Below are positions 16,259 to 35,692 of a stretch of 64,000 nt of DNA, in pieces. The DNA comes from Actinomycetales bacterium (GTDB lineage: Bacteria > Actinomycetota > Actinomycetes > Actinomycetales > Cellulomonadaceae): NCBI GenBank assembly GCA_020444245.1, contig JAHLLI010000002.1, forward strand, positions 1 through 64,000, given 5' to 3'. The first letter of the stretch is position 1. Each line of letters opens with the position of its first letter. A program made the translations under genes and the position numbers. The notes under the pieces are model-generated. The model made no database searches. It had not been told where the DNA came from and saw nothing but the letters and a program-made list of their open reading frames with translations.

Positions 16259-16270
16259 TTCATCGATTGT
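16259..16270. promoter_or_regulatory. Weak GntR-type operator copy upstream of mmsA
   Basis: TTCATCGATTGT, 9 of 12 positions equal to the best operator form ATCATCGATGAT, with the central ATCGAT intact. It lies 106 bp before the mmsA start codon. The TTG/TGT half also occurs in the copy at 35681. Confidence 0.4.
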
Positions 16271-16495
16271 TCATCGGTGTGCGTGCCGACCTGCGCCCGG
16301 CATCGCCGCGAGCCGTCCGGGTGAGGGGCCGTCGTTGCCGCCCTCGCGGCCCGCACCGCTCGCTGAAGATCATCCCATCACAGGTCAGACGCCCTTTTCT
16401 GCGGCCCGACGGTGGTGAAACCGCCGCCGAACGACGGAGGGTCGAGGGCCGCAGCCTCTGGCGATGCCCGGCCGCACCACCTCCTCGCGAACTCC

Positions 16496-16540
16496 TTGAC
16501 AACGCCTCACGGCCGTACACTACAGTGAATTATCGATGAT
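16496..16540 (+). promoter_or_regulatory. Promoter with operator for the molybdenum-hydroxylase operon
   Basis: A consensus -35 TTGACA (16496-16501) is followed after 19 nt by TACAGT (16521-16526). The operator ATTATCGATGAT (16529-16540) overlaps the expected transcription start. A bound repressor there would block initiation. The same -10/operator order is found, mirrored, at 32851-32894. Confidence 0.65.
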
Positions 16541-16694
16541 CTGCGAAGCGGCGGACAAGAGCTGCCGTGCGAAGGGGCCGGCGGGTAGCACGACGGTTCG
16601 GGACGGTGGGCGGGACGCGAGGACGCGGCCGCCGGACGCCCCGGACGGCTGTGGGACCGCGACCGGTGTCCGTGAACCAGGAAGGGACACTCGG

Positions 16695-17588
16695 ATGACC
16701 AGCAAGCTGCAGCTGAGGGAACAGTTCTCGGCGTGCGGAGCGCCGCTGCGCGTGGACGTCTACGGCAGCCAGCCGCGCGAGCACGTGCTCGACGACCTGA
16801 CGTTCCTCAACTACCGGCTCGCCGAGGTGGTCATCTCGCCCGAGATCACGGTGGACACCCCCGACATCGTCTGGCAGATGGACGGTGAGAAGGGTGTGAG
16901 CTACGACGGCCACACCATGACGTTCACGGGCGACTGGCCGGCCGGACCGCTGCAGAAGGCGATCGTCACGATGCTGACCCTCCGGATGGAGGAGATCGGC
17001 CTGCACCCCTTCCACTCCGCGGCGGTCAACTACCGCGGCAAGACGGTCCTGGTCCTCGGCGGCGAGTCGAACCACGGCAAGTCCATGGCACTGATCGAGG
17101 CCGGCGTCCGCGGCGGTGTGCAGGTCGCCTCCGAGACCTCCGTGATCGACGAGCAGGGCGTGGTGGTCAAGGGCTCGGTGGAGCCGTTCCTGATCAAGCG
17201 CACCGAGGGCACCGAGCGTGCCGACAAGGCGGCCCCCAACAAGGGCGTCGAGAAGTTCTGGGGCGCCATGCCCACCTGGGAGATCACCGACCAGCCCGCC
17301 GAGATCGACGTGGTGCTGGTCCCGGCGATCGACGGGAACTTCGACCCGAGCACCACCGAGCTCATCCCGTTCGAGAAGCAGTTCCAGTCGCTGCACTCGC
17401 TGCAGAACTACCTGCTCACCAACGAGCTCCTCGCGCCCGGGCACCCGATGCCCGTGGTCGACACCGACGAGCGCCGCCAGGCCAGGGCCGACTTCCTGCA
17501 GTCGTTCTGCACCCGGCCGTTCTTCTTCATCCGTGCGGCGACGCCGCAGGTCCTGCTCGACGAGTTCGACAAGACCTACGACGCCTAG
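16695..17588 (+). CDS. HPr-kinase-like P-loop protein, function unknown
   Basis: 297 residues. A nucleotide-binding loop GGESNHGKSM (about residues 121-130) is followed by RGGVQVASETSVIDEQG. This pairing of P-loop and an acidic strand resembles the HprK/PEP-carboxykinase fold, but the rest does not look like HprK of the sugar phosphotransferase system. The aromatic YDGHTMTFTGDW block and the C-terminal QSFCTRPFFFIRA have no meaning to me. ATG preceded by GGAAGGG. First gene of the operon with cyclase, dehydrogenase and molybdenum hydroxylase. Possibly a small-molecule kinase of the same pathway, which is inferred from position only. Confidence 0.6.
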   Translation: MTSKLQLREQFSACGAPLRVDVYGSQPREHVLDDLTFLNYRLAEVVISPEITVDTPDIVWQMDGEKGVSYDGHTMTFTGDWPAGPLQKAIVTMLTLRMEEIGLHPFHSAAVNYRGKTVLVLGGESNHGKSMALIEAGVRGGVQVASETSVIDEQGVVVKGSVEPFLIKRTEGTERADKAAPNKGVEKFWGAMPTWEITDQPAEIDVVLVPAIDGNFDPSTTELIPFEKQFQSLHSLQNYLLTNELLAPGHPMPVVDTDERRQARADFLQSFCTRPFFFIRAATPQVLLDEFDKTYDA

Positions 17589-17655
17589 GGCCGATCTGGG
17601 CACGTCGGCCCAGACACGGACCCCGAACGACCACCACGCTGCAGGAGATGAACCG

Positions 17656-18546
17656 ATGAGCACCTACGACGAGCTCGGCCGGATGGCCGACTTCCCGGCC
17701 GACCAGGTCGTGAAGGCCGCCTCGATGATCCGCACCGGGACCATGGTGTCGCTCGCCGGCGTGCGGTTCCCCGGCATGCCGCTGTTCCCCGGTCATCCCC
17801 CGTTCCAGGTGCTCAACTACCGCACCCCCCGGGGCATCCGGGCGACCGGAGCCGAGCCGTGGGGTCCGGTCAACGACGTCGGGCTCGGCTACATGGCCGA
17901 GTACCTGATGGCGTCGTCGCACTCGGGTGCGCACGTCGACGCCCTCGCCCACATGACGGTCGGCGAGGACATGCACTGGTACGGCGGGGGCAACCCCGAC
18001 GAGCACCTGAGCGACTTCGGGCCGATGGTCGGGGACGCGTCCCACCTGCCGCCGTTCTTCACCCGCGGCGTCCTGGTGGACGTGCCCGGGCACCGCGGCG
18101 TGCGGTCCCTGGAGGCCGGCGAGCCGGTCGGCGTCGACGAGGTGAAGCAGATCCTCGACGACCAGGGCGTCGAGGTCCGGCCCTGGGACGTGGTGCTGTT
18201 CCGGACCGGGTACCTGAGCTGGTGGCCGGACGCCGAGCAGCTCGCGGCGCACCGCACCGCGGGCCCGGACGTCTCCGTGGCGCACTGGCTGCTCGAGAAG
18301 GGCGTGGTCGCGGCCGGGTCGGACACCGAGACGTTCGAGGTCCAGCCCGCCCCGGACCCCGGCCCGGAGGGCAACCCGCAGCCCGTCCACACCGCGCTGC
18401 TCATCGAGAACGGTGTCTACATCCTCGAGAGCGTCGACCTCGAGGAGATCGCGCGCCGCAAGGTCTACGAGTTCTGCTTCGTCGCGCTCCCGCTGAAGAT
18501 CCGCGGCGCGACGGGCTCGATGGTCGACCCCGTCGCCATCTACTGA
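17656..18546 (+). CDS. Cyclase-family metal-dependent hydrolase
   Basis: 296 residues. Metal-binding signature of the cyclase/kynurenine-formamidase superfamily: SSHSGAHVDALAHM (about residues 93-106, HxGTHxDxxxH type), followed by GVLVDVPGHRG and DVVLFRTGY. Relatives include kynurenine formamidase and isatin hydrolase, which open amide or lactam rings using Mn or Zn. In this operon it probably hydrolyses the product of the molybdenum hydroxylase or an upstream lactone/lactam. Substrate not known. RBS-like GGAG about 10 nt before the ATG. Confidence 0.8.
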   Translation: MSTYDELGRMADFPADQVVKAASMIRTGTMVSLAGVRFPGMPLFPGHPPFQVLNYRTPRGIRATGAEPWGPVNDVGLGYMAEYLMASSHSGAHVDALAHMTVGEDMHWYGGGNPDEHLSDFGPMVGDASHLPPFFTRGVLVDVPGHRGVRSLEAGEPVGVDEVKQILDDQGVEVRPWDVVLFRTGYLSWWPDAEQLAAHRTAGPDVSVAHWLLEKGVVAAGSDTETFEVQPAPDPGPEGNPQPVHTALLIENGVYILESVDLEEIARRKVYEFCFVALPLKIRGATGSMVDPVAIY

Positions 18547-18571
18547 CACCCCGAACAGGAGAGACGCAGGC

Positions 18572-19627
18572 ATGACTGAGACGATGGAAGCCCTGGTGGT
18601 CCTCGAGCCCTCGGTGCTGGAGATCCAGCAGATCCCGGTGCCCGAGCCGGGCCCGAACGAGGTCCTGGCGCGGGTGCGCTCGGTGTCGATCTGCGGCACC
18701 GACGCCCACCTGATCCACGGCGACTACCCGGGCTTCTGGCCGCCCGCGTTCCCGTTCACCCCCGGCCACGAGTGGGCCGGGGAGATCGTGGCGCTCGGCG
18801 AGGGTGCGGACAAGCTCGGCTGGAAGGTCGGCGACCGGGTGGCCGGCACGAGCCACAACGCCTGCGGCGTGTGCCAGAAGTGCGTCGAGGGCCGGTACAA
18901 CCTCTGCGAGAACTACGGCAAGCCGGGGCTCCACAAGCAGTACGGCCACAGCTACCAGGGTGTCGACGCCACCTACGCGGTGCACAACGTCAAGTGCATC
19001 TTCAAGCTGCCCGACTCGATCTCGTTCGACGAGGGCGCGGTGGTCGACCCGGCGAGCATCGCCCTGCACGTGGCCCGGCGCGGCAACATCCAGCCCGGTG
19101 ACACGGTGGTCGTCACCGGCGCCGGCTCGGTGGGCCTGCTCGCCGGCGACAGCGCATTGGTCTGCGGTGCCGCCCGGGTGATCGTGGTCGGGCGCGGCTA
19201 CCGCCTCGCGAAGGCCGCCGAGATGGGCTTCGAGACCGTCGACACCAAGGACGGCGACCCGGTCGCCACGGTCCGGGCGCTCACCGACGGGCTCGGCGCG
19301 GACGTGGTGCTCGAGTGCGCCGGCGTGCCCGAGACCCTCCAGTGGGCGATGGCCATGCTGCGGCGCGGCGGGCGGTGCGCCATGGTCGGCATCCCCACCG
19401 AGGCGGTGGCTCTGAACGTCCAGCCGCTCGTGCTCGACGAGCTCGAGCTGGTCGGCTCGCGCGCCTCGGCCGGAGAGATGCGGCGGGTCATGCCGTTCGT
19501 GGCCGACGGTCGGGTGCGGGTCGGCGAGCTCATCACGCACCACTTCGCGCTGACGGACTACCAGCAGGCGCTCGACACCTTCAACGACCGCACCTCCGGT
19601 GCGATCAAGATCATCGTTCATCCCTGA
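18572..19627 (+). CDS. Zinc-dependent alcohol/polyol dehydrogenase (MDR)
   Basis: 351 residues with all zinc ligands of the MDR polyol-dehydrogenase type: catalytic Cys in SICGTDAH (about 40), His-Glu in GHEWAGE (about 66), and the structural-zinc cysteines in ACGVCQKCVEGRYNLC. The Rossmann motif GAGSVGLLAG lies near residue 175. It oxidises a secondary alcohol or polyol with NAD(P). Only 25 nt behind the cyclase gene and before the hydroxylase subunits, so part of one pathway. Confidence 0.88.
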   Translation: MTETMEALVVLEPSVLEIQQIPVPEPGPNEVLARVRSVSICGTDAHLIHGDYPGFWPPAFPFTPGHEWAGEIVALGEGADKLGWKVGDRVAGTSHNACGVCQKCVEGRYNLCENYGKPGLHKQYGHSYQGVDATYAVHNVKCIFKLPDSISFDEGAVVDPASIALHVARRGNIQPGDTVVVTGAGSVGLLAGDSALVCGAARVIVVGRGYRLAKAAEMGFETVDTKDGDPVATVRALTDGLGADVVLECAGVPETLQWAMAMLRRGGRCAMVGIPTEAVALNVQPLVLDELELVGSRASAGEMRRVMPFVADGRVRVGELITHHFALTDYQQALDTFNDRTSGAIKIIVHP

Positions 19628-19696: not shown

Positions 19697-20545
19697 ATGG
19701 TGACGTACTACAAGGCACACGCCGTGGCCGACGCCCTGGAGGTTCTGGGGCGCAAGGACGTCGACGCCAGGGCCCTGCTCGGAGGCACCGACCTCCTGGT
19801 GGGGCTGGACGATCGGCTCGACAGCGCACCGGGCGTCGTGGTGGACCTCAAAGGTCTCGCCGACGAGACCCCGCTCGCCGTCGAGGACAGCGGGGTACGG
19901 ATCGGCCTGACCGTGACGATGGCCGACCTCGTGGCGAACCCGACGGTCGCCGCCTGGTACCCGGCCCTCGTCCAGGCCGCGGGCGTGGTCGGCTCGGTGG
20001 CGATCCGCAACCGCGCCACCGTGGTCGGCAACATCTGCAACGCCTCGCCGGCGAGCGACACGGCCCCCGCGCTCCTCGTGCACGGCGCGAACGTGCGGAT
20101 CGCCTCGGCCGACGGCGAGCGCGTGGTCCCGATCTCGGAGTTCTTCGTGGCCCCGCGGGTCACCACGTGCGGCCGCGGCGAGCTCGTCACCGCCGTCGAG
20201 CTCCCCCGCCCGGTCCCGGGCACCGGCAGCGCGTTCCAACGGCTGACGAGGCGCTGGGGCGTGGACCTGGCGACCGTGAGCGTCGCGGCCGCGGTGCACG
20301 GCGACGGCCGGATCCAGCTCGGGCTCGGGGCGGTGGCGCCCACCCCGCTGCTGGTCGACCTGCCTGCCGGGACCGACCTGGCCGACCGCGCGGTGCTCGA
20401 CCCGGTGCTCGACGAGGCGCTGGCCGTGGCCACGCCGATCTCGGACATCCGCGCGGCCGCCGACTACCGCACGGCGATGGTGCGTGAGCTGGCCGCCCGC
20501 GCACTCCAGGCGGCACTCGACTCGACGAGGAGGACCCAGGCATGA
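19697..20545 (+). CDS. Molybdenum hydroxylase, FAD-binding medium subunit
   Basis: 282 residues, the normal length for the CoxM/XdhB-type subunit. FAD-binding motifs: LLGGTDLLVGL (about residues 27-37) and IRNRATVVGNICNASPASD (about 102-120). It passes electrons from the [2Fe-2S] subunit to NAD or another acceptor. Gene order is medium-small-large, and its last codons overlap the small-subunit start by 4 bp. Confidence 0.92.
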   Translation: MVTYYKAHAVADALEVLGRKDVDARALLGGTDLLVGLDDRLDSAPGVVVDLKGLADETPLAVEDSGVRIGLTVTMADLVANPTVAAWYPALVQAAGVVGSVAIRNRATVVGNICNASPASDTAPALLVHGANVRIASADGERVVPISEFFVAPRVTTCGRGELVTAVELPRPVPGTGSAFQRLTRRWGVDLATVSVAAAVHGDGRIQLGLGAVAPTPLLVDLPAGTDLADRAVLDPVLDEALAVATPISDIRAAADYRTAMVRELAARALQAALDSTRRTQA

Positions 20546-21036
20546 GCGTCGGTACCGGGTCGCTGGTGACGGTCACCGCGACGATCAACGGCGAGACCCG
20601 CACGTTCACCGTGCCGGGCCACCGCACCCTGCTGGACGCGCTGCGCTCGGAGCTGGGCCTGACCGGCACCAAGAGCAGCTGCACCGAGGGTGAGTGCGGG
20701 GCGTGCACCGTCATGCTCGACGGCCACGCGGTCAACTCCTGCCTGGTGCTCGCCGCCGAGGTCGACGGCCACGAGGTCGTCACCATCGAGGGCCTCTCCG
20801 TCGACGGCGGGACCGACCTGCAGCAGGCGTTCCTGGAGCACGGCGCCGTGCAGTGCGGGTTCTGCATCCCCGGCCAGGTGATGTCCGCCGAGTACCTGCT
20901 GTCGCACAACCCGGACCCCAGCGTCGAGGAGATCCGGGACGCGCTGTCCGGGAACCTCTGCCGCTGCGCCAGCTACAACCGGATCGTCGAGGCGGTCCGC
21001 CAGACCGCGGAGAAGAGGGTGAGCACCCGTGGGTGA
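20542..21036 (+). CDS. Molybdenum hydroxylase, [2Fe-2S] small subunit
   Basis: 164 residues carrying two iron-sulfur clusters. The plant-ferredoxin-type cluster is bound by CTEGECGACTVMLDG...SC. The second cluster uses QCGFCIPGQ and NLCRCASYNRI in the C-terminal helical domain. It conducts electrons from the molybdenum centre to FAD. Overlaps the genes on both sides, so the three subunits are made in fixed ratio. Confidence 0.94.
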   Translation: MSVGTGSLVTVTATINGETRTFTVPGHRTLLDALRSELGLTGTKSSCTEGECGACTVMLDGHAVNSCLVLAAEVDGHEVVTIEGLSVDGGTDLQQAFLEHGAVQCGFCIPGQVMSAEYLLSHNPDPSVEEIRDALSGNLCRCASYNRIVEAVRQTAEKRVSTRG

Positions 21037-23347
21037 CGCACTGAGGTCACAGGAGGTCGGAACCCTGCGGCCGGACGGGAACGTCGGCACCAGGACCAAG
21101 CGCTACGGCGGGCTCGAGCGGGCCAGCGGCGCGCAGAAGTACGTCGCCGACCTCGAGTTCCCCGAGGCCCTCCAGGTCGCGATCGTCACGATCCCGGTGG
21201 GCTGCGCCGACATCCTCGGCGTCGACACCGCCGAGGCCGAGGCCATGCCCGGCGTCGTCGGCGTGCTCACCGCCGCTGATCTGCCCAGCCCGATGCCGCG
21301 GTTCGGCGTCTCGCACAAGGACCGTCCGGTGATGGCCGACGGCCGGGTCAACTTCTACGGCGAGCCGGTCGCGGCCGTCGCCGCCCTGACCCAGGAGCAG
21401 GCCGACGCGGCCGCGCGAGTGGTGAAGGTGGACTACCGCGAGCTGCCTGGCGTCTACACGCTCGACGCCGCGCTGGCGCCCGGCGCCCACCTCGTGCAGG
21501 ACCCGAGCGACCCGACCAAGCGGGCCGGCGACGCGCTGCGCGAGACCAACGTGATCGAGGAGCAGACGATCGCGTGGGGCGACCTCGCCGAGCAGGAGGC
21601 CAAGGCGGCCCTGGTGGTCGAGGACTCCTACAGCTACCCGATGATGACCCAGTTCCCGATCGAGCCGCTCGCGGTGATCGCGGAGCCCACCGACGTGGGC
21701 GGGCTGACCCTGTACACCCCCGTCCAGCACCCCTACCTCATGCAGCGGATCGTCGCCGGCCTGGTCGGCAAGACGCTGGGCCAGGTCCACGTCATCGCGC
21801 CCGACCCCGGCGGCGGCTTCGGCGGCAAGCAGATCCCCAAGTACGAGCCGCTGATGGCGTTCCTCGCGCTCAAGCTCGGCCGGACCGTCCGGCTCACGCT
21901 GAACCTGGCGGAGACCACCACGGCGATCCGCCGGGCCGGCGCCACGGTGCACGCCAGGACGGGCTTCACGTCCGAGGGCGACATCGTGTTCCACCACGTG
22001 AGGATCGACTACCAGATCGGTGCGTACGCCGACGTCGCCCCGCGCGTGATGACCAAGGGCAGCTACGTCGGCGGCGGCCCCTACCGCCTGCCGGCGTGCC
22101 TGATCGAGGCGCGTGCGGTGCTGACCAACACCCCGGTCAGCACGGCCATGCGCGGCTACGGCGCACCGCAGATCAGCTGGGCGACCGAGTCCCAGATCAC
22201 CGACGGCGCCCGGCGCCTCGGTCTGGACCCGGCGCGCGTCCGGCTGCGCAACCTGGTCGAGAACGGCGAGGAGTTCGTCAAGGGCGAGTTCGCCGGCAAG
22301 GCCGACGGGGAGTGGAAGCAGGCCGTCGAGAAGGCGATGGAGCTGGCCGGCTGGGATGACCCGCTGCCCCCGAACCGGGGTCGCGGCATCGCGGTGGGCA
22401 TCAAGTCCAGCGCGACGTCCGGGCTGTCCCAGAGCCTGGTCCGGCTGCTGTACGACGGCAGCGCGATCGTCTACGCGGGCACGTCCGACATGGGACAGGG
22501 CGCCAGGACCATCTGGGCCCAGACCGTGGCCGACGAGCTCGGCGTCCCGCTCGAGAAGGTCACCGTGATCAGCGGTGACACCGACCTGGTGCCGTTCGAC
22601 CTGCAGACGTCGGCGAGCCGCTCGACGGTGTTCATGGGCACCGCGGTGCTCCGGGCCTGCCGGGACGTGCGCCGGCAGGTGCGTGAGATGTACGCCGAGC
22701 GCGTCGGCGTGGAGCCCGGTGAGCTCGACGACGAGCCCGGCGCGGTGCTCACCGCCGAGGGCGCCGTGGCGCTGGACGAGGCGGCCCGGATCGGGCTCGG
22801 CGCGCTGCGCGGCGAGGTCCTCGGTCAGGGCACCTGCCGGCTCGAGGGGCGCAAGGGCCACCCGCTGGGCGGCGACGCGTCGTTCTACGAGTTCAACTGC
22901 TCGATCAGCGAGGTGGAGCTGGACGCCGGCACGGGTCAGTTCGTCATCACCCGCCACGTGTCGGTCAGCGACGTGGGTACCGAGCTCAACCCCATCCAGG
23001 TCACCGCCCAGGAGGAGGGCGGCGCGATCATGGGGATCGGCCAGGCCGACATGGAGCAGCTCGTCTTCGACGAGCACGGTCGACTGCTCAACCCGAGCGC
23101 GATCGACTACCGGGTGCCCACCTACAAGGACGTGCCGTTGGAGCTCTTCACGAGCGCCGTCGAGAACCACGACGGACCAGGCCCGTACGGCTCCAAGGGC
23201 ATGAGCGAAGGCCCGATCCTGTGCACGGGGGCTGCCCTCGGGGCGGCCGTCACGGCGGCGGCAGGGGTCAAGATCACCGACCTCCCGCTCACCGCCGAGC
23301 GCATCTGGAGAGCGACCCGAGCCGCGGCGGAGGGCGCCATCGCCTGA
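21029..23347 (+). CDS. Molybdenum hydroxylase, molybdopterin-binding large subunit
   Basis: 772 residues, GTG start. Xanthine-dehydrogenase superfamily marks: DPGGGFGGKQIPKYEP (about 268-283), STAMRGYGAPQ (about 370-380, equivalent to FRGFGGPQ), MGQGARTIW, and the catalytic Glu of KGMSEGP near residue 720. It lacks the AYxCSFR loop of carbon-monoxide dehydrogenase. It therefore belongs with xanthine/aldehyde/N-heterocycle oxidising enzymes. The active-site segments do not identify the substrate. It needs the cytosine-dinucleotide Moco supplied by the neighbouring mocA/xdhC genes. Confidence 0.93.
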   Translation: MGDALRSQEVGTLRPDGNVGTRTKRYGGLERASGAQKYVADLEFPEALQVAIVTIPVGCADILGVDTAEAEAMPGVVGVLTAADLPSPMPRFGVSHKDRPVMADGRVNFYGEPVAAVAALTQEQADAAARVVKVDYRELPGVYTLDAALAPGAHLVQDPSDPTKRAGDALRETNVIEEQTIAWGDLAEQEAKAALVVEDSYSYPMMTQFPIEPLAVIAEPTDVGGLTLYTPVQHPYLMQRIVAGLVGKTLGQVHVIAPDPGGGFGGKQIPKYEPLMAFLALKLGRTVRLTLNLAETTTAIRRAGATVHARTGFTSEGDIVFHHVRIDYQIGAYADVAPRVMTKGSYVGGGPYRLPACLIEARAVLTNTPVSTAMRGYGAPQISWATESQITDGARRLGLDPARVRLRNLVENGEEFVKGEFAGKADGEWKQAVEKAMELAGWDDPLPPNRGRGIAVGIKSSATSGLSQSLVRLLYDGSAIVYAGTSDMGQGARTIWAQTVADELGVPLEKVTVISGDTDLVPFDLQTSASRSTVFMGTAVLRACRDVRRQVREMYAERVGVEPGELDDEPGAVLTAEGAVALDEAARIGLGALRGEVLGQGTCRLEGRKGHPLGGDASFYEFNCSISEVELDAGTGQFVITRHVSVSDVGTELNPIQVTAQEEGGAIMGIGQADMEQLVFDEHGRLLNPSAIDYRVPTYKDVPLELFTSAVENHDGPGPYGSKGMSEGPILCTGAALGAAVTAAAGVKITDLPLTAERIWRATRAAAEGAIA

Positions 23348-23491: not shown

Positions 23492-24748
23492 GTGACCAGG
23501 AATCCGACCGTCTGTCTTGCTGGCACCCTCGACACCAAGGGCGTCGAGTACAAGTACGTCAAGGAGTGCATCGAGAACCAGGGCGTCGACGTCCTCATGG
23601 TCGACTGCGGGGTGATCGGCGAGCCGTACTTCACGCCGGACATCCCGTCGAGCGAGGTGGCCGCCGCGGCGGGCGTCGACCTGGCCGAGTTCGCCGAGCG
23701 CAAGGAAGGCGCCGAGGGCCGGACCAAGGCGGTCCTGTCGATGGGCCGTGGCCTGGGCGTCGTGCTCCAGAAGCTCTACGACGAGGGCCGCATCGACGCG
23801 GTCTTCGGCATGGGTGGCACCGGTGGTACCGACCTGCTCAGCCCGGCGTTCCGCGAGCTGCCGATCGGCTTCCCGAAGATGATCGTGTCGACGATGGGCT
23901 CGGGCAACACCAAGCCGTACGTCGGCCCGTCCGACCTGATCATGGCGAACGCCGTGACCGACATCGCCGGCCTGAACCGGATCTCGCTGCTGGTGCTCGG
24001 CAACGCCGCGCACGCCATCGCGGGCATGGCCAAGGGCTACAGCTACGCGCAGAGCCAGGCGAGCGGCAGCAAGCCGCTCGTCGCGATGACGATGTGGGGC
24101 GTCACCACGCCCGGTGTCATGCGCATCCGCGAGCAGCTGGAGCGGGACGGCTTCGAGGTCATCATCTTCCACGCGGTGGGCGAGGGCGCGGGGATGGAGG
24201 CCCTCATCGACAGCGGTGTCATCGACGGCCTGATCGACTACTCGCTGCCGGAGATCCTCAACCACTGGCACAAGGGTCTGTTCGACCCGGGCATCGAGCG
24301 CATGGAGGCTGCGATCCGCACCGGTATCCCGGTGGTCGTGGCGCCCGGCGCGCTCGAGGCGTTCAACTTCGGTGCGCTCACCACGATCCCGCCGGAGTTC
24401 AACGTCCCGGAGCGGTACGTCATCGAGCACAACCCGAACGTCAGCTCGCTGCGTGCGACCGAGGACGAGATGGCCAAGCTCGGCGAGTACGTGGCCGACC
24501 ACGTCAACCGGGCGCCGGGGCCGAAGGCCGTGGCGCTCCCGTGGAAGGCGACCTGCAACTACGCGCGTGAGGGCAGCCCGTGGGAGGGCCTGGACCTCCA
24601 CCCGATGTTCGACCCGCTGCTGAAGACCCTCGACCCGGACGTCGAGGTCGTGCAGATGGACGCGAACATCAACGACCCCGAGTTCGCGGACGCGGTGTAT
24701 GCGCTGTTCCAGGCACGCTGGGAGCAGGCCAAGGCGGCCAAGGAGTAG
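23492..24748 (+). CDS. UPF0261 / Tm-1-like ATP-binding protein
   Basis: 418 residues. It begins TVCLAGTLDTKGVEYKYVKE, the family signature, and has GMGGTGGTDLLSPAF (about residues 107-121) and KMIVSTMGSGNTKPYVGPSDL. The family shares a fold with the ATP-binding half of the plant antiviral protein Tm-1, and no enzymatic role is established. It is often found with a TIM-barrel partner, which is absent here. It follows the hydroxylase large subunit after 144 nt and ends before a strong terminator, so it closes the first transcription unit. Confidence 0.8.
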   Translation: MTRNPTVCLAGTLDTKGVEYKYVKECIENQGVDVLMVDCGVIGEPYFTPDIPSSEVAAAAGVDLAEFAERKEGAEGRTKAVLSMGRGLGVVLQKLYDEGRIDAVFGMGGTGGTDLLSPAFRELPIGFPKMIVSTMGSGNTKPYVGPSDLIMANAVTDIAGLNRISLLVLGNAAHAIAGMAKGYSYAQSQASGSKPLVAMTMWGVTTPGVMRIREQLERDGFEVIIFHAVGEGAGMEALIDSGVIDGLIDYSLPEILNHWHKGLFDPGIERMEAAIRTGIPVVVAPGALEAFNFGALTTIPPEFNVPERYVIEHNPNVSSLRATEDEMAKLGEYVADHVNRAPGPKAVALPWKATCNYAREGSPWEGLDLHPMFDPLLKTLDPDVEVVQMDANINDPEFADAVYALFQARWEQAKAAKE

Positions 24749-26636: not shown

Positions 26637-26648
26637 ATCATCGATGAT
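26637..26648. promoter_or_regulatory. Operator copy before the DUF1097 gene
   Basis: Perfect palindrome ATCATCGATGAT, followed by TT, in the 163-bp gap after mocA. It shows that the membrane protein has its own control point although it reads the same way as the upstream operon. No clear -35/-10 pair is seen next to it. Confidence 0.6.
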
Positions 26649-28392: not shown

Positions 28393-29709
28393 TCAGCGCG
28401 GTGCGGGCACGACCTGGTCGGGGAGCTCGGGCGACCACGGCGGCAGCGGGACCGCCGGCAGCGCCTGACCGGCCTCGACCTGCGTGACCTCGGCCGGGAC
28501 CACCGCCAGCGCGTGCGCGAGGTGCAGCGACCCGACCAGGTGCGAGGCGGAGCCGAGCCGGTGGGTGGGCCGCGCGAGGTACGGCTCGCCGGGTCGCTCC
28601 GGGGCCTCCAGGCGCACCGGGGCGTACTGCCGTCGCCCGCTGGGCGACCGCCACGCCTCGGCCGCCCTGACCTGCACCGTGAGCGTCTCGCCGAGCGGGT
28701 CGCGGCCGGCGAGCCTCGCCAGGGCGGGCCGGACGTACACGCGGAACCCGACGAACGAGCTCACCGGGTTGCCGGGCAGCGCGACCACCGGTACCGGACG
28801 GTGCGGACCGCCGGTCAGCACGCCGAGGCCCTGGGGCTTGCCCGGCTGCATCGCCACCTGGACGAACCGCACCTCGGGCGACTCCAGCGCCTGGCGCACC
28901 ACCTCGAACGCCCCCGCCGAGATACCGCCGCACGTCACCACCAGGTCGGCGACCTCGGCCGCGCGGGAGAGCACGGCGTCCAGCACCTCGGGGTCGTCCC
29001 CGACCCGCTCGGCGAGCGGCACGTCGGCGCCCCACTCGGTCGCGAGCGCGACCAGCATCGCCAGGTTGGAGTCCGGGATCGTGCCACCGCCGAGTGCGTC
29101 GCCCGGCGCCGCCAGCTCGTCGCCGGTCGAGACCACGGCCAGCCGCGGCCTGCGGACCACGGACAGCTCGCCGTAGCCCACCGCCCCCGCGGCGGCGAGC
29201 GCGGCGGGCCCGAGGCGGGTCCCGGCGGGCATCACCGGGGCGCCGACCGGGACGCCCTCGCCGCGGTGGCGCACGTAGGCGCCGGCGGCGACGGGCTCCA
29301 CGACGCGCACCGCAGGCGGCAGCGGCGCGGCGCCGCGCGGCTGGTCGGTCTGCTCGACGGGCACCACCGCGTCCGCGCCGTCGGGCAGCGGCGCGCCGGT
29401 CATGATCCGGATCGCGGTGCCCGGTGCCAGTGCCGATGCCGCGGCCGGACCGGCGGGCTGGTCGCCGGTGACCGGCAGCTCCACCGGCCGCTCGGCGGAC
29501 GCGCCGGCGACGTCGGCGGCGCGGACCGCGAACCCGTCCATCGAGGAGTTGGTGAACGGGGGAGCCGGGAGCCTGGCGACGAGGTCCTCGTGGAGGGTCA
29601 GACCGAGGCACCGGGCCAGCGGCAGCGTCACGGCCGGCAGGGTGCTCACCAGCGCCAGGATCTCGTCGCGGTGCTCCTCGACCGTCCTGGTGGGCGATGC
29701 GTGCGCCAT
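28393..29709 (-). CDS. moeA: Molybdopterin molybdenumtransferase MoeA
   Basis: 438 residues of standard MoeA layout: PPFTNSSMDGFAVRAADV near residue 50, GTAIRIMTGAPLPDGADAVV (about 98-117), VVSTGDEL, the catalytic subdomain TCGGISAGAFEVV, and LPGNPVSSFVGFRVYVRP. It inserts molybdate into adenylated molybdopterin. An operator copy of the ATGATCGATCAT form lies 32 bp upstream of its start, so Moco completion would rise with the pathway enzymes. Confidence 0.94.
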   Translation of the reverse strand: MAHASPTRTVEEHRDEILALVSTLPAVTLPLARCLGLTLHEDLVARLPAPPFTNSSMDGFAVRAADVAGASAERPVELPVTGDQPAGPAAASALAPGTAIRIMTGAPLPDGADAVVPVEQTDQPRGAAPLPPAVRVVEPVAAGAYVRHRGEGVPVGAPVMPAGTRLGPAALAAAGAVGYGELSVVRRPRLAVVSTGDELAAPGDALGGGTIPDSNLAMLVALATEWGADVPLAERVGDDPEVLDAVLSRAAEVADLVVTCGGISAGAFEVVRQALESPEVRFVQVAMQPGKPQGLGVLTGGPHRPVPVVALPGNPVSSFVGFRVYVRPALARLAGRDPLGETLTVQVRAAEAWRSPSGRRQYAPVRLEAPERPGEPYLARPTHRLGSASHLVGSLHLAHALAVVPAEVTQVEAGQALPAVPLPPWSPELPDQVVPAPR

Positions 29710-29741: not shown

Positions 29742-29753
29742 ATGATCGATCAT
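29742..29753. promoter_or_regulatory. Operator copy between moeA and the GntR regulator gene
   Basis: ATGATCGATCAT, a perfect palindrome (14 bp with flanking G and C). It differs from ATCATCGATGAT only at the two symmetric positions +/-4. In the shared upstream space it could control moeA and the regulator together. Confidence 0.55.
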
Positions 29754-29872: not shown

Positions 29873-30607
29873 ATGGTCAGCCGCTCGGCAGGGCCGCTCT
29901 GGGAGCAGGTGAAGGAGATCCTGCTCAAGCGGATCATCGCCGGTGAGCTGCTGCCCGACGCCCGCATCGTCGAGGTCCAGGTCGCCCGCGAGCTCGGCGT
30001 CAGCCAGGCCCCGGTCCGCGAGGCACTGAAGTCGCTCGAGGCGCTCGGCATGGTCGACATCCTGCCGTTCAGCGGGGCGCGGGTGCACCGCCAGACCGCC
30101 AAGGAGCTCCTGGACGCCTACTCCGTGCGCGCCGAGCTCGAGGTGCTCGCGATCCGCTTCGCCGCCGCCCGCGGTGCGGACTTCTCGTCCCTGACGGCGC
30201 GGATGGGGGACATGTACCACGCGGCCGCCGAGGGCGACATGATGCGGCTGTCGATCGCGGACACGGCCTTCCACGAGGAGATCATCAAGGCGTCGGACAA
30301 CGCCGAGCTCCTGCGGCTGTGGCACAACCTGCAGCCGAGCACGCGCGCGTACATCACCCTGATCAGCCCCGGTGCGGACCCGAACTGGACCGTCGGCCTG
30401 CACCCGCCGATCCTCAACACGCTGCTCGCCGGCGACGTCGAGGGCGCGACCGAGGCGATGCGTCAGCACTTCGCGCTCGCGCGGGCGCGCCTGGAGGCCA
30501 GCATCGCTCACCGCGGCGAGGACGAGCCGCCCGCCGAGATCAAGGCAGCGGTCGAGGCGGAGGCGGCCAAGGCTGCATCCGAGGCCGGCGGCGCGCTCAT
30601 CGCCTGA
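29873..30607 (+). CDS. GntR-family regulator with FCD ligand-binding domain
   Basis: 244 residues. The N-terminal winged helix reads LWEQVKEILLKRIIAGELLPDARIVEVQVARELGVSQAPVREALKSLEALGMV (a GntR signature). The C-terminal all-helical FCD domain has metal-site residues in YSVRAELEVLAIRF, DTAFHEEIIKASDN and HPPILNTLLAGD. Such repressors release DNA when they bind a small acid or sugar acid of the pathway they control. Its central place among operator copies spread over 20 kb makes it the obvious master regulator of this locus. The 3' end overlaps the convergent transketolase gene by 11 bp. Confidence 0.9.
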   Translation: MVSRSAGPLWEQVKEILLKRIIAGELLPDARIVEVQVARELGVSQAPVREALKSLEALGMVDILPFSGARVHRQTAKELLDAYSVRAELEVLAIRFAAARGADFSSLTARMGDMYHAAAEGDMMRLSIADTAFHEEIIKASDNAELLRLWHNLQPSTRAYITLISPGADPNWTVGLHPPILNTLLAGDVEGATEAMRQHFALARARLEASIAHRGEDEPPAEIKAAVEAEAAKAASEAGGALIA

Positions 30608-31538
30608 GGCGGTCGGCCACCTGCTCGGCCACCTTCTGCGGGGTGAGGCCGTACAGGTCCAGCAGGTCGTCGTTGGTCCCGGACTCGGGGTAGACGTCCT
30701 GGAAGCCGAGCCGGTCCAGCCTGGTCGGACGGTGCTCCGAGAGCACCTCCGCCACGGCGCCGCCGAGCCCGCCGAGCACCGAGTGCTCCTCGACGGTGAT
30801 GACCCGGCCGGTCGAGGCGGCCTCGACGATGCCGTCCACGTCCAGCGGCTTGAGCGTGGGCACGTGCACCACCCGCGCGTCGACGCCCTGCTCGGCGAGC
30901 AGGTCCGCGGCCTGCAGGACGCGCGGCGTCTGCGTGCCGGTGGACAGCAGCGACACGTCCGAGCCGTCCCGCAGCACGGCGACCTTGCCGATCTCGAACG
31001 GGCGGCCCGGCTCGAAGACGCGCGCGGTGACGTCGCGAACGAGGCGCACGTACACCGGGCCGTCGTACTGCGCGGCCCAGCGCAGCGCACCCTCGGCCTC
31101 GACGTCGTCGGCCGGTGCGATGACCACCATGCCCGGCATGTCGCGCATGATCGCCAGGTCGTCGACGATGATGTGGCTCATCCCGGTCGACCCGGTGAAC
31201 AGGCCCGCGTAGCTCGGCGTGATCTTGACGTTGGCGCCGGTCTGGGCGATGAGCACGCGCACCTGGTCCAGCGGCCGCACCACGGCGAAGGCGACGAACG
31301 TCGACACGAACGGGATGAGCCCGGTGGTGGCCAGGCCGGCGGCGACGCCGAGCATGTTCTGCTCGGCGATGCCCATCTCGAGGAACTTGTCGGGGTGGGC
31401 CTTCTCGAAGATGTCGGCCTTGGTCGAGCTGGCGACGTCGCCGTCCACGACCACGATCCGCGGGTCCTCGTCGGCGAGCGCCGAGACCACCCGGCCGAAC
31501 ACCTCGCGCTGGGCCAGGCCCATGGGGAGCGTCATCAT
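30597..31538 (-). CDS. Transketolase, C-terminal (pyrimidine-binding) subunit
   Basis: 313 residues of a split transketolase. The pyrimidine-domain Glu is seen in EMGIAEQNMLGVAAGLA (about residue 55), followed by YAGLFTGSTGMSHIIVDDLAIMRDMPGMVV and the C-terminal transketolase domain. With the adjacent N-terminal subunit it makes a thiamine-diphosphate enzyme that moves a two-carbon ketol unit. Start ATG overlaps the partner's stop (TGATG). In a regulated catabolic locus a split enzyme usually serves an unusual ketose, not the pentose phosphate pathway. Confidence 0.9.
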   Translation of the reverse strand: MMTLPMGLAQREVFGRVVSALADEDPRIVVVDGDVASSTKADIFEKAHPDKFLEMGIAEQNMLGVAAGLATTGLIPFVSTFVAFAVVRPLDQVRVLIAQTGANVKITPSYAGLFTGSTGMSHIIVDDLAIMRDMPGMVVIAPADDVEAEGALRWAAQYDGPVYVRLVRDVTARVFEPGRPFEIGKVAVLRDGSDVSLLSTGTQTPRVLQAADLLAEQGVDARVVHVPTLKPLDVDGIVEAASTGRVITVEEHSVLGGLGGAVAEVLSEHRPTRLDRLGFQDVYPESGTNDDLLDLYGLTPQKVAEQVADRLRR

Positions 31539-32443
31539 CACTGCCTCACCGCCCCGGTCCCGGCGCCGAGGTCGGCGAGGGCCGTCGCGTAGTCCTGGGG
31601 GCTCAGCGGCTTGCTGTGCCACGTGTAGTCGTTCTCCATGTACGACACGCCCTTGCCCTTGACGGTCTGGGCGATGATCACGGTCGGGCCGGCGCCCTGG
31701 CGGGACTCGATCGCGTCGCGCAGGGTGGTCAGGATGTCGCGCATGTCGTGCCCGTCCATCCCGAGCACGCGCCAGCCGAACGCCCGCCACTTGTCGGCGA
31801 GCTGGCCGGGGGCGTGCGGCGGCTCGACCAGCCGGGTGGACCCCTCGCGGTCGACGAGCCAGCCGAACTGCTGCAGGTGGTTCTCGTCGACGATCACGAA
31901 GAGGTTGTCCAGGCGGGCGCGGTGGCGGCTGGCGGCCATCGCCGCCTCCCAGACCTCGCCCTCCTGGCACTCGCCGTCGCCGAGCATGACGAACGCCAGG
32001 TAGTCCTTGCCCTGCACGCTCGCGCCCAGGGCCATGCCCATCGCGGCGGAGATGCCCATGCCCAGGGATCCGGTCGACATGTCGACGCCCGGCAGCCGGG
32101 TCATCTCGGGGTGGCCCTGCAGGCGCGAGTGCACGGCGTCGAACGTGAGCAGCTCGTCCACCGGCAGGTACCCGCGGTGGGCCATCGTCGAGTAGAGGCC
32201 GATCGCCGAGTGGCCCTTGGAGAGCACGAACCGGTCGCGGTCGGGCCAGGTGGGCTCCTCCGGCCGGATGCGCATGATCTTGAAGTACAGGGCGGTGAGG
32301 ATGTCCGCGGCGGACAGTGGCCCGCCCAGGTGCCCGGCCTTGGCGACGTTGATCGCCTCGATCACCGAGATCCGGATCTGCCGGGCGGTCTCCTCGAGCG
32401 CGGCGATCTCCGCGTCGTCGAAGGAGAGGTCGGGTCGTGCCAT
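31538..32443 (-). CDS. Transketolase, N-terminal (diphosphate-binding) subunit
   Basis: 301 residues. The thiamine-diphosphate motif GDGECQEGEVWEA...NHLQQFG lies around residues 155-190, and substrate-loop histidines occur in GHLGGPLSAADI and SKGHSAIGLY. It forms the active enzyme with the downstream subunit. It follows the cupin gene after 1 nt, so the three are one transcript under the promoter at 32851-32894. Confidence 0.9.
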   Translation of the reverse strand: MARPDLSFDDAEIAALEETARQIRISVIEAINVAKAGHLGGPLSAADILTALYFKIMRIRPEEPTWPDRDRFVLSKGHSAIGLYSTMAHRGYLPVDELLTFDAVHSRLQGHPEMTRLPGVDMSTGSLGMGISAAMGMALGASVQGKDYLAFVMLGDGECQEGEVWEAAMAASRHRARLDNLFVIVDENHLQQFGWLVDREGSTRLVEPPHAPGQLADKWRAFGWRVLGMDGHDMRDILTTLRDAIESRQGAGPTVIIAQTVKGKGVSYMENDYTWHSKPLSPQDYATALADLGAGTGAVRQ

Positions 32444-32444: not shown

Positions 32445-32807
32445 TCAGCTCTCCTTCTCGTAGGAGCCCGCGCGCACCGACGGCGTGAACACGCACAGCA
32501 GCTCCAGGTCCTCGGGCCCGTCGGACTCGGTGGCGTGGAAGGTGCCCGGGGGCACGTGGACGAGCACGCCGGGCGTCATCTCTGCCGTGGCGTCAGGGGA
32601 GACGATGCGGCCGCGGCCCTTGACGCAGAAGATCGTCTCCTCCTCGGCCGGGTGGATGTGGCCCTCGGGGCGCGAGCCCGCCGGGTACACCGAGAGGCCG
32701 ATGGACAGGTGCTCGGCGTCGGAGTTCCACGGCCCGAAGTAGGTGTGGAACGTGCGGCCAGGGAGCTCGATGGACTGCGCGTCCTCGAGGACGTAGCGCG
32801 TGATCAC
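32445..32807 (-). CDS. Small cupin protein
   Basis: 120 residues forming a single cupin barrel. Metal ligands appear in GHIHPAEEETIFCVKGRG (two His and a Glu, about residues 52-69) and HVPPGTFHATES (about 90-101). Small cupins of this form are isomerases, dioxygenases or ligand sensors. First gene of the transketolase operon, so likely a sugar- or keto-acid-modifying step in the same pathway. Function unknown. Confidence 0.75.
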   Translation of the reverse strand: MITRYVLEDAQSIELPGRTFHTYFGPWNSDAEHLSIGLSVYPAGSRPEGHIHPAEEETIFCVKGRGRIVSPDATAEMTPGVLVHVPPGTFHATESDGPEDLELLCVFTPSVRAGSYEKES

Positions 32808-32850: not shown

Positions 32851-32894
32851 ATTATCGATGATTTACACTAGTGACGGCCGCGACGTGGCGTCAA
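32851..32894 (-). promoter_or_regulatory. Promoter with operator for the cupin-transketolase operon
   Basis: On the minus strand: -35 TTGACG (32894-32889), 18-nt spacer, -10 TAGTGT (32870-32865), then the operator ATCATCGATAAT (32862-32851) across the start point. Architecture and operator placement mirror the promoter at 16496-16540. Confidence 0.7.
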
Positions 32895-32985: not shown

Positions 32986-32997
32986 ATCATCGATGAG
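32986..32997. promoter_or_regulatory. Upstream operator copy, 135 bp from the transketolase promoter site
   Basis: ATCATCGATGAG, 11 of 12 positions of the best form. It lies between the end of moaC and the cupin promoter, not in front of any other gene start. It could be a secondary site that helps repression by looping. Confidence 0.45.
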
Positions 32998-33012: not shown

Positions 33013-33510
33013 TCACCGCTCGCCCGGATCGCCCTCCGGCCGGCGCCAGTCGCCCGATCGGCCGCCGGACTTGGCGACCACGCGGACGTCGGTCAGCACG
33101 GCCGAGCGGTCCACGGCCTTGACCATGTCGATCAGCGCCAGCCCGGCTACCGCGACGCTGGTCAGCGCCTCCATCTCCACGCCCGTGCGGTCCGCGGTAC
33201 GCACCGTCGCGGTGATCTCGACCGCGTCGTCGGTGACCTCCAGGTCGACCACCACGCCGTGGATGGCGATCGGGTGGCACAGCGGCACGAGGTCCGGGGT
33301 GCGCTTGGCCGCCGCGATCCCGGCGATCCGGGCGACGGCGAGCGCGTCGCCCTTGGGCAGCCCGCCCTCGCGCAGCAGCCCCGGCACGTGCGGGGCCACG
33401 AGGACCCGGCCGGCCGCGGTCGCCGTGCGGACCGTGACCTGCTTGTCCGCGACGTCCACCATGCGCGCTGCGCCGTGGGAGTCGACGTGGGTCAGCCTGG
33501 GCTCGCTCAT
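33013..33510 (-). CDS. moaC: Cyclic pyranopterin monophosphate synthase MoaC
   Basis: 165 residues. MoaC signature: LTHVDSHGAARMVDV at the start, KGDALAVARIAGIAAAKRTPDLVPLCHPI (about residues 52-80), EMEALTSVAVAGLALIDMVKA. It converts the MoaA product into cyclic pyranopterin. A -10-like TACTCT lies 7 nt before the ATG (leaderless). Divergent from moaA with 20 bp between starts. Confidence 0.94.
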   Translation of the reverse strand: MSEPRLTHVDSHGAARMVDVADKQVTVRTATAAGRVLVAPHVPGLLREGGLPKGDALAVARIAGIAAAKRTPDLVPLCHPIAIHGVVVDLEVTDDAVEITATVRTADRTGVEMEALTSVAVAGLALIDMVKAVDRSAVLTDVRVVAKSGGRSGDWRRPEGDPGER

Positions 33511-33530
33511 GGCACCGAGAGTAGGCGGCC

Positions 33531-34553
33531 GTGACGGGCCCGGGCGCGCCGGCCGCGCTGTCCGACTCCTTCGGCCGGGTGGCGCGGACCCTGCGGGTGT
33601 CGCTGACGGACCGGTGCACCCTGCGGTGCCGGTACTGCCTGCCGGCCGAGGGCGTGGCATGGCTGCCCACCGACGAGGTGCTCACCGACGACGAGGTGGT
33701 CCGCCTGGTCCGGATCGCCGTCGAGCGGCTGGGCGTGCGGCGGGTGCGGCTGACCGGGGGAGAGCCGCTGCTGCGCCGGGGCCTGGAGGAGATCGTGGGG
33801 CGGATCGCCGGGATGCGGACCGCCGAGGGTGCGCGTCCGCGGGTCGCGCTGACCACCAACGGCGTGAGCCTGGCGCGCAAGGCCGACGCGCTCGTCGACG
33901 CCGGGCTCGACCGGGTGAACGTCTCGCTGGACACCCTGGACCGCGAGCGGTACGCCGCCCTGACCCGGCGCGACCGGTTGCCCGACGTGCTGGCCGGGCT
34001 CGCGGCGGCGCGCCGTGCTGGCCTGACACCGATCAAGGTCAACACCGTGCTGATGCGCGGGATCAACGACGACGAGGCCGTACCGCTGCTGCGCTGGGCC
34101 GTCGCGGAGGGCTACCGGCTGCGGTTCATCGAGCAGATGCCCCTCGGCCCGGCGGACGAGTGGGACCGCGCGCAGCTGGTGACCGCGCAGGAGATCCTCG
34201 ACCGGCTCGCTGCCGAGGTCGAGCTGGTCCCCGTGCCGGCGTCGCAGCGGGGTTCGGCCCCGGCGGAGATGTGGCGGGTGGCCGGTACCGACGCCGAGGT
34301 CGGGGTGATCGCGTCGGTCAGCAGGCCGTTCTGCGGGGCCTGCGACCGGGTGCGGCTGACCGCTGAGGGCCACGTGCGACACTGTCTGTTCGCGGCCACC
34401 GAGACCGACCTGCGCACCCCGATGCGGGCCGGTGCGGACGACGACGAGCTCGTCCGGCTCTGGGTCGCTGCCGTGGCGGGCAAGCCCGCGTCGGGGATCG
34501 GCGACGGGCTGCACGTCCCGCCGGACCGGTTGATGAGCGCGATCGGAGGCTGA
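33531..34553 (+). CDS. moaA: GTP 3',8-cyclase MoaA
   Basis: 340 residues, GTG start. The radical-SAM motif CTLRCRYC (about residues 28-35) and the second cluster motif CGACDRVRLTAEGHVRHC (about 265-282) are complete, as is LTGGEPLLRRGL. The protein ends in GG as MoaA should (IGG), the segment needed for catalysis. First committed step of Moco synthesis. Followed 2 nt later by moaD. Confidence 0.95.
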   Translation: MTGPGAPAALSDSFGRVARTLRVSLTDRCTLRCRYCLPAEGVAWLPTDEVLTDDEVVRLVRIAVERLGVRRVRLTGGEPLLRRGLEEIVGRIAGMRTAEGARPRVALTTNGVSLARKADALVDAGLDRVNVSLDTLDRERYAALTRRDRLPDVLAGLAAARRAGLTPIKVNTVLMRGINDDEAVPLLRWAVAEGYRLRFIEQMPLGPADEWDRAQLVTAQEILDRLAAEVELVPVPASQRGSAPAEMWRVAGTDAEVGVIASVSRPFCGACDRVRLTAEGHVRHCLFAATETDLRTPMRAGADDDELVRLWVAAVAGKPASGIGDGLHVPPDRLMSAIGG

Positions 34554-34555
34554 GC

Positions 34556-34813
34556 GTGACCGCACAGGTGACCGTCCGGTGGTTCGCGGCGGCCGGGGAG
34601 GCCGCGGGGCGCGCCGAGGAGGTCGTCGAGCTCGACGGCGCCACCACCACGGGCGAGCTGCTGGCCCGCGCGGTCGCCGAGCGCGGCGAACGGCTGGGCC
34701 GGGTGGTCGCGGCGTGCAGCGTGCTGGTCGACGGCACGGTGGACCGGGACCGCACGCGGGTGCTGGAGCCCGGCGGCACGGTCGACGTGCTCCCGCCGTT
34801 CGCGGGAGGCTGA
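34556..34813 (+). CDS. moaD: Molybdopterin synthase sulfur carrier MoaD
   Basis: 85 residues of ubiquitin-like fold ending in PPFAGG, the GG tail that becomes the thiocarboxylate donating sulfur to molybdopterin. It begins VRWFAAAGEAAG. Co-transcribed with moaA and convergent with moaE, its enzyme partner, which is separated by only 22 bp. Confidence 0.92.
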   Translation: MTAQVTVRWFAAAGEAAGRAEEVVELDGATTTGELLARAVAERGERLGRVVAACSVLVDGTVDRDRTRVLEPGGTVDVLPPFAGG

Positions 34814-34835
34814 CCGGCGCGGCCGGACCGGGGCG

Positions 34836-35378
34836 CTAGGGGCTGTTGACCCACTGGGCGGTGCCGTCGGTGAGGACCTGCCGCTTCCACACCGGCAGGC
34901 GCTTCTTGACCTGCTCCACGAGGGCGGACGTCGCGGCGAACGCCTCGGCGCGGTGCGCGGAGGAGACCGCGGCGGCCAGCGCGCAGTCGCCGACCTCCAG
35001 CCGTCCGACGCGGTGCGTGACGGCCACGGCGTCCACGTCGAAGCTCGTCGCGACCTCGCGGGCGATCTCGTGCATGAGCACGTCGGCCGAGGGGTGGGCG
35101 GTGTACTCGAGCCACGACACCGCCGCGCCGCGGTCGTGGTCGCGGATCACGCCGGCGAAGGTGATCACGGCGCCTGCGGTGTCGCGTGCGACGAGCCGGG
35201 CGTGCGCCTCGGCGTCGATCGGGCGTTCCGTGACGCCGGCGATGACGACCTCATGGGCGGCAGGGACGCGCCTAGAATCATCGATTTGCGGGCTGACGCA
35301 GCCCTGTGGCGCGTGGGGGGCGGGCCGGTCGGAGGCAGCCGCCAGGGCCGGTCCGGGCTCCCGCGCCACCGTCGTCAC
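34836..35378 (-). CDS. moaE: Molybdopterin synthase catalytic subunit MoaE
   Basis: About 180 residues from GTG at 35378. MoaE marks: GAVITFAGVIRDHDRGAAVSWLEYTAHPSA, RVGRLEVGDCALAAAVSSAHRAEAF (active-site region), EQVKKRLPVWKRQ. The N-terminus carries about 45 residues more than usual before VIAGVTERPI, and an operator copy lies inside this extra stretch. No ATG, GTG or TTG exists in frame between the operator and the conserved part. Either the extension is real or initiation is unusual. Confidence 0.88.
   Translation of the reverse strand: MTTVAREPGPALAAASDRPAPHAPQGCVSPQIDDSRRVPAAHEVVIAGVTERPIDAEAHARLVARDTAGAVITFAGVIRDHDRGAAVSWLEYTAHPSADVLMHEIAREVATSFDVDAVAVTHRVGRLEVGDCALAAAVSSAHRAEAFAATSALVEQVKKRLPVWKRQVLTDGTAQWVNSP
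35277..35288. promoter_or_regulatory. Operator copy within the moaE 5' region
   Basis: ATCATCGATTTG, 9 of 12 positions of the best form with an intact left half. It sits about 30 codons into the moaE frame as drawn. A TAGAAT hexamer directly abuts it on the plus strand. Confidence 0.4.
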
Positions 35379-35533
35379 GCGGACCAGCGTACGGCCAGCG
35401 CCCCGTGACCCCGCAAGTCCCAGGCGCGCAGCTGCCCCCGGGCCACGATTGATCATCTACCGCAGATGCGAGCCGACTCGACTCATGCGATAGGCACATG
35501 CCAGGATGATCGGGACAGAAGGCCCGCATCTGC

Positions 35534-35545
35534 ATCATCGATGAT
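35534..35545. promoter_or_regulatory. Operator copy between moaE and modA
   Basis: Perfect ATCATCGATGAT. It is placed between the divergent moaE and modA genes, 209 bp before the modA ATG. A TTGACA overlaps its right end (35545-35550), but no matching -10 is obvious. Confidence 0.55.
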
Positions 35546-35680
35546 TGACAGCATGTCGTCATGTTCGAGCCCCACGCCCGCCCCGGCCCCGCAGGCCCCG
35601 GCACTCCCGGAGCCTGCGCGCGTCGGCCCGCGTGGTCGCCCGACGAAGGCGCCGCCCCTCGACGCGTCGGTGTGGTCCGG

Positions 35681-35692
35681 ATGATCGATTGT
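35681..35692. promoter_or_regulatory. Operator copy before modA
   Basis: ATGATCGATTGT, sharing its left half with the moeA copy and its right half with the mmsA copy. It is 62 bp before the modA ATG. The interval 35541-35684 is also an open frame of 47 codons without known similarity, which I do not call as a gene. Confidence 0.45.

Follow-up and report, generated by a model that had tools for sequence, protein, structure and literature searches.

Cells usually run the synthesis of molybdenum cofactor (Moco) as a shared service. Could a catabolic pathway instead own part of its cofactor supply and switch it together with the enzyme that uses it? The question is raised by a gene cluster in an Actinomycetales bacterium of the family Cellulomonadaceae (assembly GCA_020444245.1), in which nine palindromes centred on ATCGAT stand among the genes of a molybdenum hydroxylase pathway, genes of Moco synthesis and a gene for a GntR/FCD regulator (gntR, starting at 29873). 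The window, meaning the whole stretch of DNA analysed, is the first 64,000 nucleotides of contig JAHLLI010000002.1. We consider it likely that the cluster is a local regulon, in which the GntR/FCD protein would act on ATNATCGATNAT operators and jointly repress the pathway and Moco genes until an inducer comes. This reading draws on four observations: the sites are clustered, they are conserved in a relative, the genes around them combine a molybdenum hydroxylase pathway with Moco synthesis, and the palindrome is associated with one branch of GntR proteins.

Nine palindromes and their conservation

The nine palindromes that an earlier note on this DNA had listed are all in place, each with an exact ATCGAT core. 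They are given here with distances from site centre to start codon and with their state in Actinotalea lenta, the relative discussed below.

Site 1, 16259..16270, TTCATCGATTGT: 78 bp upstream of mmsA; weak outer positions; identical in A. lenta
Site 2, 16529..16540, ATTATCGATGAT: 160 bp upstream of the HPrK-like gene heading the hydroxylase operon; within a 54-base run identical to A. lenta
Site 3, 26637..26648, ATCATCGATGAT: 102 bp upstream of the DUF1097 gene; identical in A. lenta
Site 4, 29742..29753, ATGATCGATCAT: between the divergent moeA and gntR; one base different in A. lenta, still a full ATNATCGATNAT match
Site 5, 32851..32862, ATTATCGATGAT: 50 bp upstream of the cupin-transketolase operon; within a 33-base run identical to A. 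lenta
Site 6, 32986..32997, ATCATCGATGAG: 184 bp upstream of the cupin gene; the aligned A. lenta site stands just before moaA
Site 7, 35277..35288, ATCATCGATTTG: 36 bp upstream of moaE; weak outer positions; ATCATCGAT kept in A. lenta
Site 8, 35534..35545, ATCATCGATGAT: in the moaE-modA intergenic region
Site 9, 35681..35692, ATGATCGATTGT: 68 bp upstream of modA

Taken over both strands, the profile of the nine sites is fully informative at all six core positions, and the four outer A/T positions carry 1.2 bits each. The site common to moeA and gntR lies 38 bp from the former start codon and 126 bp from the latter, and modA has sites at 68 and 216 bp from its start.

These palindromes are real and far from random. 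The word ATCGAT occurs 11 times in the window, nine of them within 16.3-35.7 kb, and at three or fewer mismatches ATCATCGATGAT has 28 window matches, compared with a shuffled mean of 6.94 and a shuffled maximum of 14. The earlier note had seen only one similar match elsewhere, which was close: two extra matches, at 19610 and 42201, have no more than two mismatches to ATCATCGATGAT. It had also asked for a whole-genome scan, and there the matches are not scattered. Across the 4,410,608 bases (4.41 Mb) of the 44 contigs, five of the six exact ATNATCGATNAT matches fall in the cluster; the chance of at least five of six exact sites lying inside 19.4 kb is about 1e-11. With up to one mismatch, 15 matches occur genome-wide and eight in the cluster, against one for a reversed-pattern control. 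One of these eight, at 19610, falls at the 3' end of the gene for the alcohol dehydrogenase, without an ATCGAT core.

The other comparison that the earlier note had sought, of orthologous loci, likewise came out in its favour: the sites are conserved in A. lenta, the sole relative found with the cluster. Among 200 sampled genomes of the family, GntR orthologues (E 1e-30) occur in two, the source genome and A. lenta, and a contig scan with the single GntR protein returned A. lenta and two distant relatives only. The A. lenta cluster shares 80-90% DNA identity with the window from mmsA through a metallo-beta-lactamase gene; moaC, moaD and modA have no match within it. It holds 11 ATCGAT words in 32 kb. 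Seven of the nine window sites align with A. lenta sites, namely those of mmsA, the hydroxylase operon, DUF1097, moeA/gntR, cupin, the place of site 6 and moaE; the remaining words are one before the metallo-beta-lactamase gene and three elsewhere, one of these a one-mismatch match. In A. lenta, sites stand directly upstream of moaA, of moaE and of the next gene, and all four exact ATNATCGATNAT sites of its genome are inside the cluster. The remaining 17 genomes of the genus hold three exact sites between them, and in the sample none of these genomes gives the GntR protein at E 1e-30. Conservation of the sites is most conspicuous in poorly conserved spacers, with 49% identity upstream of moaE and 65% between cupin and moaA.

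The GntR branch and its proposed operator code

If the GntR protein reads the palindrome, the two should be found together elsewhere. The best GntR homologues, 36-46% identical and from other families, occupy eight loci, and all eight have ATCGAT palindromes near the gntR homologue. At five of five distant loci from three genera (L044-L047 and L049), ATAATCGATTAT or ATAATCGATAAT lies about 40-75 bp before a first open reading frame (ORF) of 577 residues, followed by gntR, cyclase, coxM, coxL and coxS. Their hydroxylase is about 31-33% identical to that of the window, and no Moco gene match was found in these five stretches. The Pfam domains of L044 are PEP-utilizers, cyclase, PPDK_N, FAD, Mo-binding, 2Fe-2S and FAA-hydrolase; as a side observation, L044:7742-18409 forms a palindrome-headed operon with split phosphoenolpyruvate (PEP)-synthase-like domains, cyclases, a molybdenum hydroxylase and an FAA hydrolase. 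A conserved double form of the palindrome, TTGATCGATCATCGATCAG, with two ATCGAT words 7 bases apart, was also seen in two families (f6 and f94), where it lies 0.6-0.9 kb from the beginning of a related gntR gene, at the following loci:

L017, L019-L022, L096-L098, L102, L104, L106, L109, L110, L112

We typed 90 homologue loci, mostly of 3.2-3.7 kb and the last 40 picked from the listing before counting, by the residue at the position of FadR Arg45, and scored a site as a palindrome at one mismatch or fewer within about 1.5 kb. A site is present in 34 of 47 Gln-type loci (intact ATCGAT core in 32, exact in 12), in none of the 35 Arg, five Lys and two Asp loci, and in the one Pro locus. First-order Markov resampling expects 0.02 sites per locus for the Gln type and 0.011 for the Arg type, and Fisher's test of Gln versus Arg gives 1.5e-12 with kinship ignored. 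The 47 Gln loci represent 19 genera, of which 11 have an intact-core site, or 14 counting three genera with a site farther off. A tree of these proteins unites the window, the Pro locus and 41 of the 47 Gln loci in a single group that has no Arg, Lys or Asp member (98/95, the bootstrap not having settled); six Gln rows stand apart, two of them with sites. Since the Gln loci fall mostly in one group, the pattern may represent few evolutionary events.

According to the available text of PMC4494728, FadR and AraR make their main base-specific contact through an Arg of the recognition helix, which reads G, and FadR-type proteins have the consensus TKGT/ACMA with 2-3 nt between GT and AC, BioR and NanR being exceptions. 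The window protein carries PF00392 and PF07729, both over cut-off, as members of the GntR/FCD subfamily do. Its putative operator, TNAT-CG-ATNA, fits the 2-nt spacing but has A in place of G, and its recognition helix has Gln45 in place of Arg45 while keeping Arg49. Gln45 is a variant inside a family that is defined by its domains. Reading A through Gln instead of G through Arg would be a natural exchange, but what we have is an association among kin, not proof. We find it an evenly balanced proposition that a GntR/FCD branch changed its DNA code (Arg to Gln; TNGT-ACNA to TNAT-CG-ATNA) and that, in this genus, such a regulator put a catabolic molybdenum hydroxylase under common control with a private Moco supply. 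An operator class in which A takes the place of the G usual for GntR proteins would apparently be new; no GntR operator paper with these letters was found in open-access PMC, judged by titles. If true, residue-operator coupling would make it possible to predict ATCGAT regulons from sequence throughout Actinomycetota, and the Gln45/ATCGAT association offers a rule that can be put to the test in one of the largest families of bacterial regulators.

A proposed pathway-owned part of the Moco supply

The proposed operators stand among the following genes:

14639..16186, minus strand: mmsA, CoA-acylating (methyl)malonate-semialdehyde dehydrogenase (TIGR01722 over cut-off)
16695..17588, plus: HPrK-like protein, heading the hydroxylase operon
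17656..18546, plus: cyclase-family hydrolase (PF04199)
18572..19627, plus: zinc alcohol dehydrogenase (best NCBIfam model inosose dehydrogenase IolM, below cut-off)
19697..20545, plus: hydroxylase FAD subunit, coxM type (tblastn to L044, whose ORF is FAD_binding_5)
20542..21036, plus: hydroxylase 2Fe-2S subunit, coxS type (tblastn to L044, whose ORF is Fer2)
21029..23347, plus: molybdenum hydroxylase large subunit (PF20256)
23492..24748, plus: UPF0261 / Tm-1-like protein
24899..25984, plus: XdhC-like maturation factor (below model cut-offs)
25981..26580, plus: MobA/MocA-like nucleotidyltransferase (below NCBIfam cut-offs)
26744..27334, plus: DUF1097 membrane protein (PF06496 over cut-off)
28393..29709, minus: MoeA-like protein (best models below cut-off)
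29873..30607, plus: GntR/FCD regulator, proposed binder (Pfam GntR and FCD over cut-off; recognition helix SQAPVREAL, Gln45)
30597..31541, minus: transketolase C-terminal half
31538..32443, minus: transketolase N-terminal half
32445..32807, minus: cupin
33013..33510, minus: moaC (PF01967)
33531..34553, plus: moaA (Radical_SAM and Mob_synth_C)
34556..34813, plus: moaD-like (by position and GG end)
34836..35246, minus: moaE (PF02391), one of three genome copies
35755..36564, plus: ModA-like solute-binding protein (SBP_bac_11)

The Mo-binding large, FAD and 2Fe-2S subunits of the xanthine oxidase family are all present, and the large subunit resembles 4-hydroxybenzoyl-CoA reductase, below NCBIfam cut-offs. 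The protein at 16695..17588, which we take from its look to be HPrK-like, has no Pfam or NCBIfam match; a search placed it in one of 396 genomes of the phylum (its own), yet A. lenta has it at 97%. A text search of open-access PMC on the odd gene names of the cluster gave nothing relevant to the substrate, and no copy of the cluster was seen in a plasmid collection (best hydroxylase 37% identity, best GntR 39%). Nor did a search for Moco or other riboswitches over 10000-42000 give any Rfam match at gathering thresholds.

The cluster's hydroxylase is the one PF20256 enzyme both of this genome and of A. lenta. Both genomes also have other molybdenum enzymes, given that PF00384 finds three here and two in A. 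lenta. This genome has three MoaE copies and A. lenta two; of 19 genomes of the genus, 13 have one and three have none. The cluster moaE is an extra copy. Of the other copies here, one neighbours moaA on contig C12 and one shares the 7-kb contig C43 with moaA, moaD and moeA, neither accompanied by palindromes; C43 may be a contaminant, contamination of the assembly being 3.34%. The small contigs C13, C43 and C44 were seen to carry additional genes for molybdenum enzymes and Moco, possibly contamination or assembly fragments. The second moaE of A. lenta is 3 kb from a PF00384 gene. Another genome, G119, has a homologous moaC-moeA-moaA-moaD-moaE-modA cassette (moaC 82%, moaE 74%) without this GntR, and the 19-kb stretch around it (L067, G119:C23:300000-319000) contains no palindrome. 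The same 19 kb has no hydroxylase match.

We propose that the GntR/FCD protein binds the ATNATCGATNAT operators as a dimer. Without inducer, probably a carboxylic acid of the pathway, it would repress five transcription units or divergent pairs: mmsA with the hydroxylase operon; DUF1097; moeA with gntR itself; cupin-transketolase; and moaE with modA. Arrival of the inducer would jointly derepress the catabolic enzymes, the molybdenum hydroxylase and the extra, pathway-owned part of the Moco genes. Cofactor supply would then follow demand, leaving untouched the Moco genes at other genomic positions, which in A. lenta are neighbours of nitrate reductase. That the protein would repress rather than activate, and would answer to an inducer, follows the usual behaviour of FCD proteins as given in the available text of PMC4494728. 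A pathway that owns and switches part of its cofactor supply would carry and regulate a whole functional molybdoenzyme unit as one piece, and such units would be useful for moving molybdoenzymes between hosts.

Several points weigh against this regulon. GntR binding, repression, inducer class and joint induction are inferred. Sites 16259 and 35277 are weak, with two mismatches to ATNATCGATNAT, and would count only through their ATCGAT core and conservation in A. lenta; some of that conservation simply reflects kinship, A. lenta being the only other genome with the cluster, at 85-90% DNA identity over much of its length. The sixth exact ATNATCGATNAT match lies outside the cluster at C28:72079-72090, 24 bp upstream of a gene that we take, by the look of its sequence, to be of the GGDEF type. 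Consensus promoter scans of three spacers found no usual promoter save a single weak match on the minus strand, which overlaps site 2; with scans so nearly empty, it is site position that suggests promoter occlusion. Among the Gln loci, 13 of 47 have no site within 3.6 kb, five of them having one farther off. Finally, no site stands directly upstream of moaC or moaA-moaD in the window, the closest correctly oriented site to moaA being 540 bp away.

This last point fits an alternative in which GntR controls the catabolic units only, the palindromes at moeA, moaE and modA being by-products of rearrangement or of divergent spacers used in common, with a constitutive supply of Moco. Such a model would also suit a moeA site that is common to gntR, a weak moaE site, and a Moco cassette that seems modular, its G119 homologue having no sites. 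However, ATCATCGAT before moaE has been kept in A. lenta though the rest of that spacer is only 49% identical, moaA of the same genome has a site immediately upstream, and in the window two sites precede modA; we therefore regard control of the catabolic units alone as improbable. A much slighter chance attaches to the palindromes binding another, unlinked regulator with the GntR gene as a bystander. That GntR binding is a prediction leaves room for this, as does the departure of the ATCGAT core from TKGT/ACMA, but the palindrome accompanies GntR homologues in unrelated neighbourhoods and in other families, is absent from all 42 Arg, Lys and Asp loci, and has almost no sites in genomes of the genus that lack the GntR gene. 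The GntR/FCD protein at 29873 is thus very probably the binder. Chance or compositional clustering of ATCGAT, for which two weak sites among nine and a match inside a gene might be cited, is very improbable in view of the shuffles, the genome-wide counts, the reversed-pattern control and the conservation.

The local GntR regulon put forward in the earlier note is supported, on the Moco side for moeA, moaE and modA, which have their own nearby sites, while moaC, moaA and moaD, which have no direct site here, may or may not belong to it.

Comparison with known systems

The earlier note also called the design unusual, which it is, without being unheard of: Moco genes in catabolic clusters were already known. 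The nicotine plasmid pAO1 and Arthrobacter M2012083, in its nic segment, each carry genes for a catabolic molybdenum hydroxylase in one segment with Moco genes, and other parts of the genome supply some Moco steps; unlike the arrangement proposed here, there are three separate regulator regions (tr1-tr3), and the available text describes no single operator for Moco and pathway genes (PMC4342571). As in pAO1, molybdenum hydroxylase genes of the window stand beside Moco genes, and the latter are additional to another copy in the genome. In Pseudomonas putida S16, one particular moaE, whose mRNA increases 1.8-fold with nicotine, is needed for a catabolic hydroxylase in the breakdown of that compound, but the text available describes no regulator or operator (PMC4548258).

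Among GntR regulators, AlkR of Pseudomonas aeruginosa (FCD/VanR) has the same fold family (PDB 9ISW) and, as its available description has it, needs Arg45 and Arg49 of helix 3 to bind ATTGTCAGACAAT (PMC12042122). It differs in reading ATTGTCAGACAAT, with TTGT half-sites, whereas the window protein has Gln45 in the aligned place and putative TNAT half-sites. BioR offers a likeness in its non-canonical TTATMKATAA, with A where others have G (PMC4494728, in part), but is an alphaproteobacterial biotin regulator (PMC4554459, in part). In Bacillus thuringiensis, a moaA-moeB-moeA-moaE operon is raised when the GntR regulator NupR is lost; NupR belongs to the HutC subfamily and, in the text available, does not bind that promoter, so that its effect is indirect (PMC9430930). 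In open-access PMC we found no regulon in which a GntR protein controls Moco or molybdenum hydroxylase genes, or a GntR/FCD protein is paired with ATCGAT. Catabolic clusters with Moco genes thus have a precedent in pAO1, and the cluster described here appears to vary that theme, its apparent novelty being one operator common to the pathway and its Moco genes.

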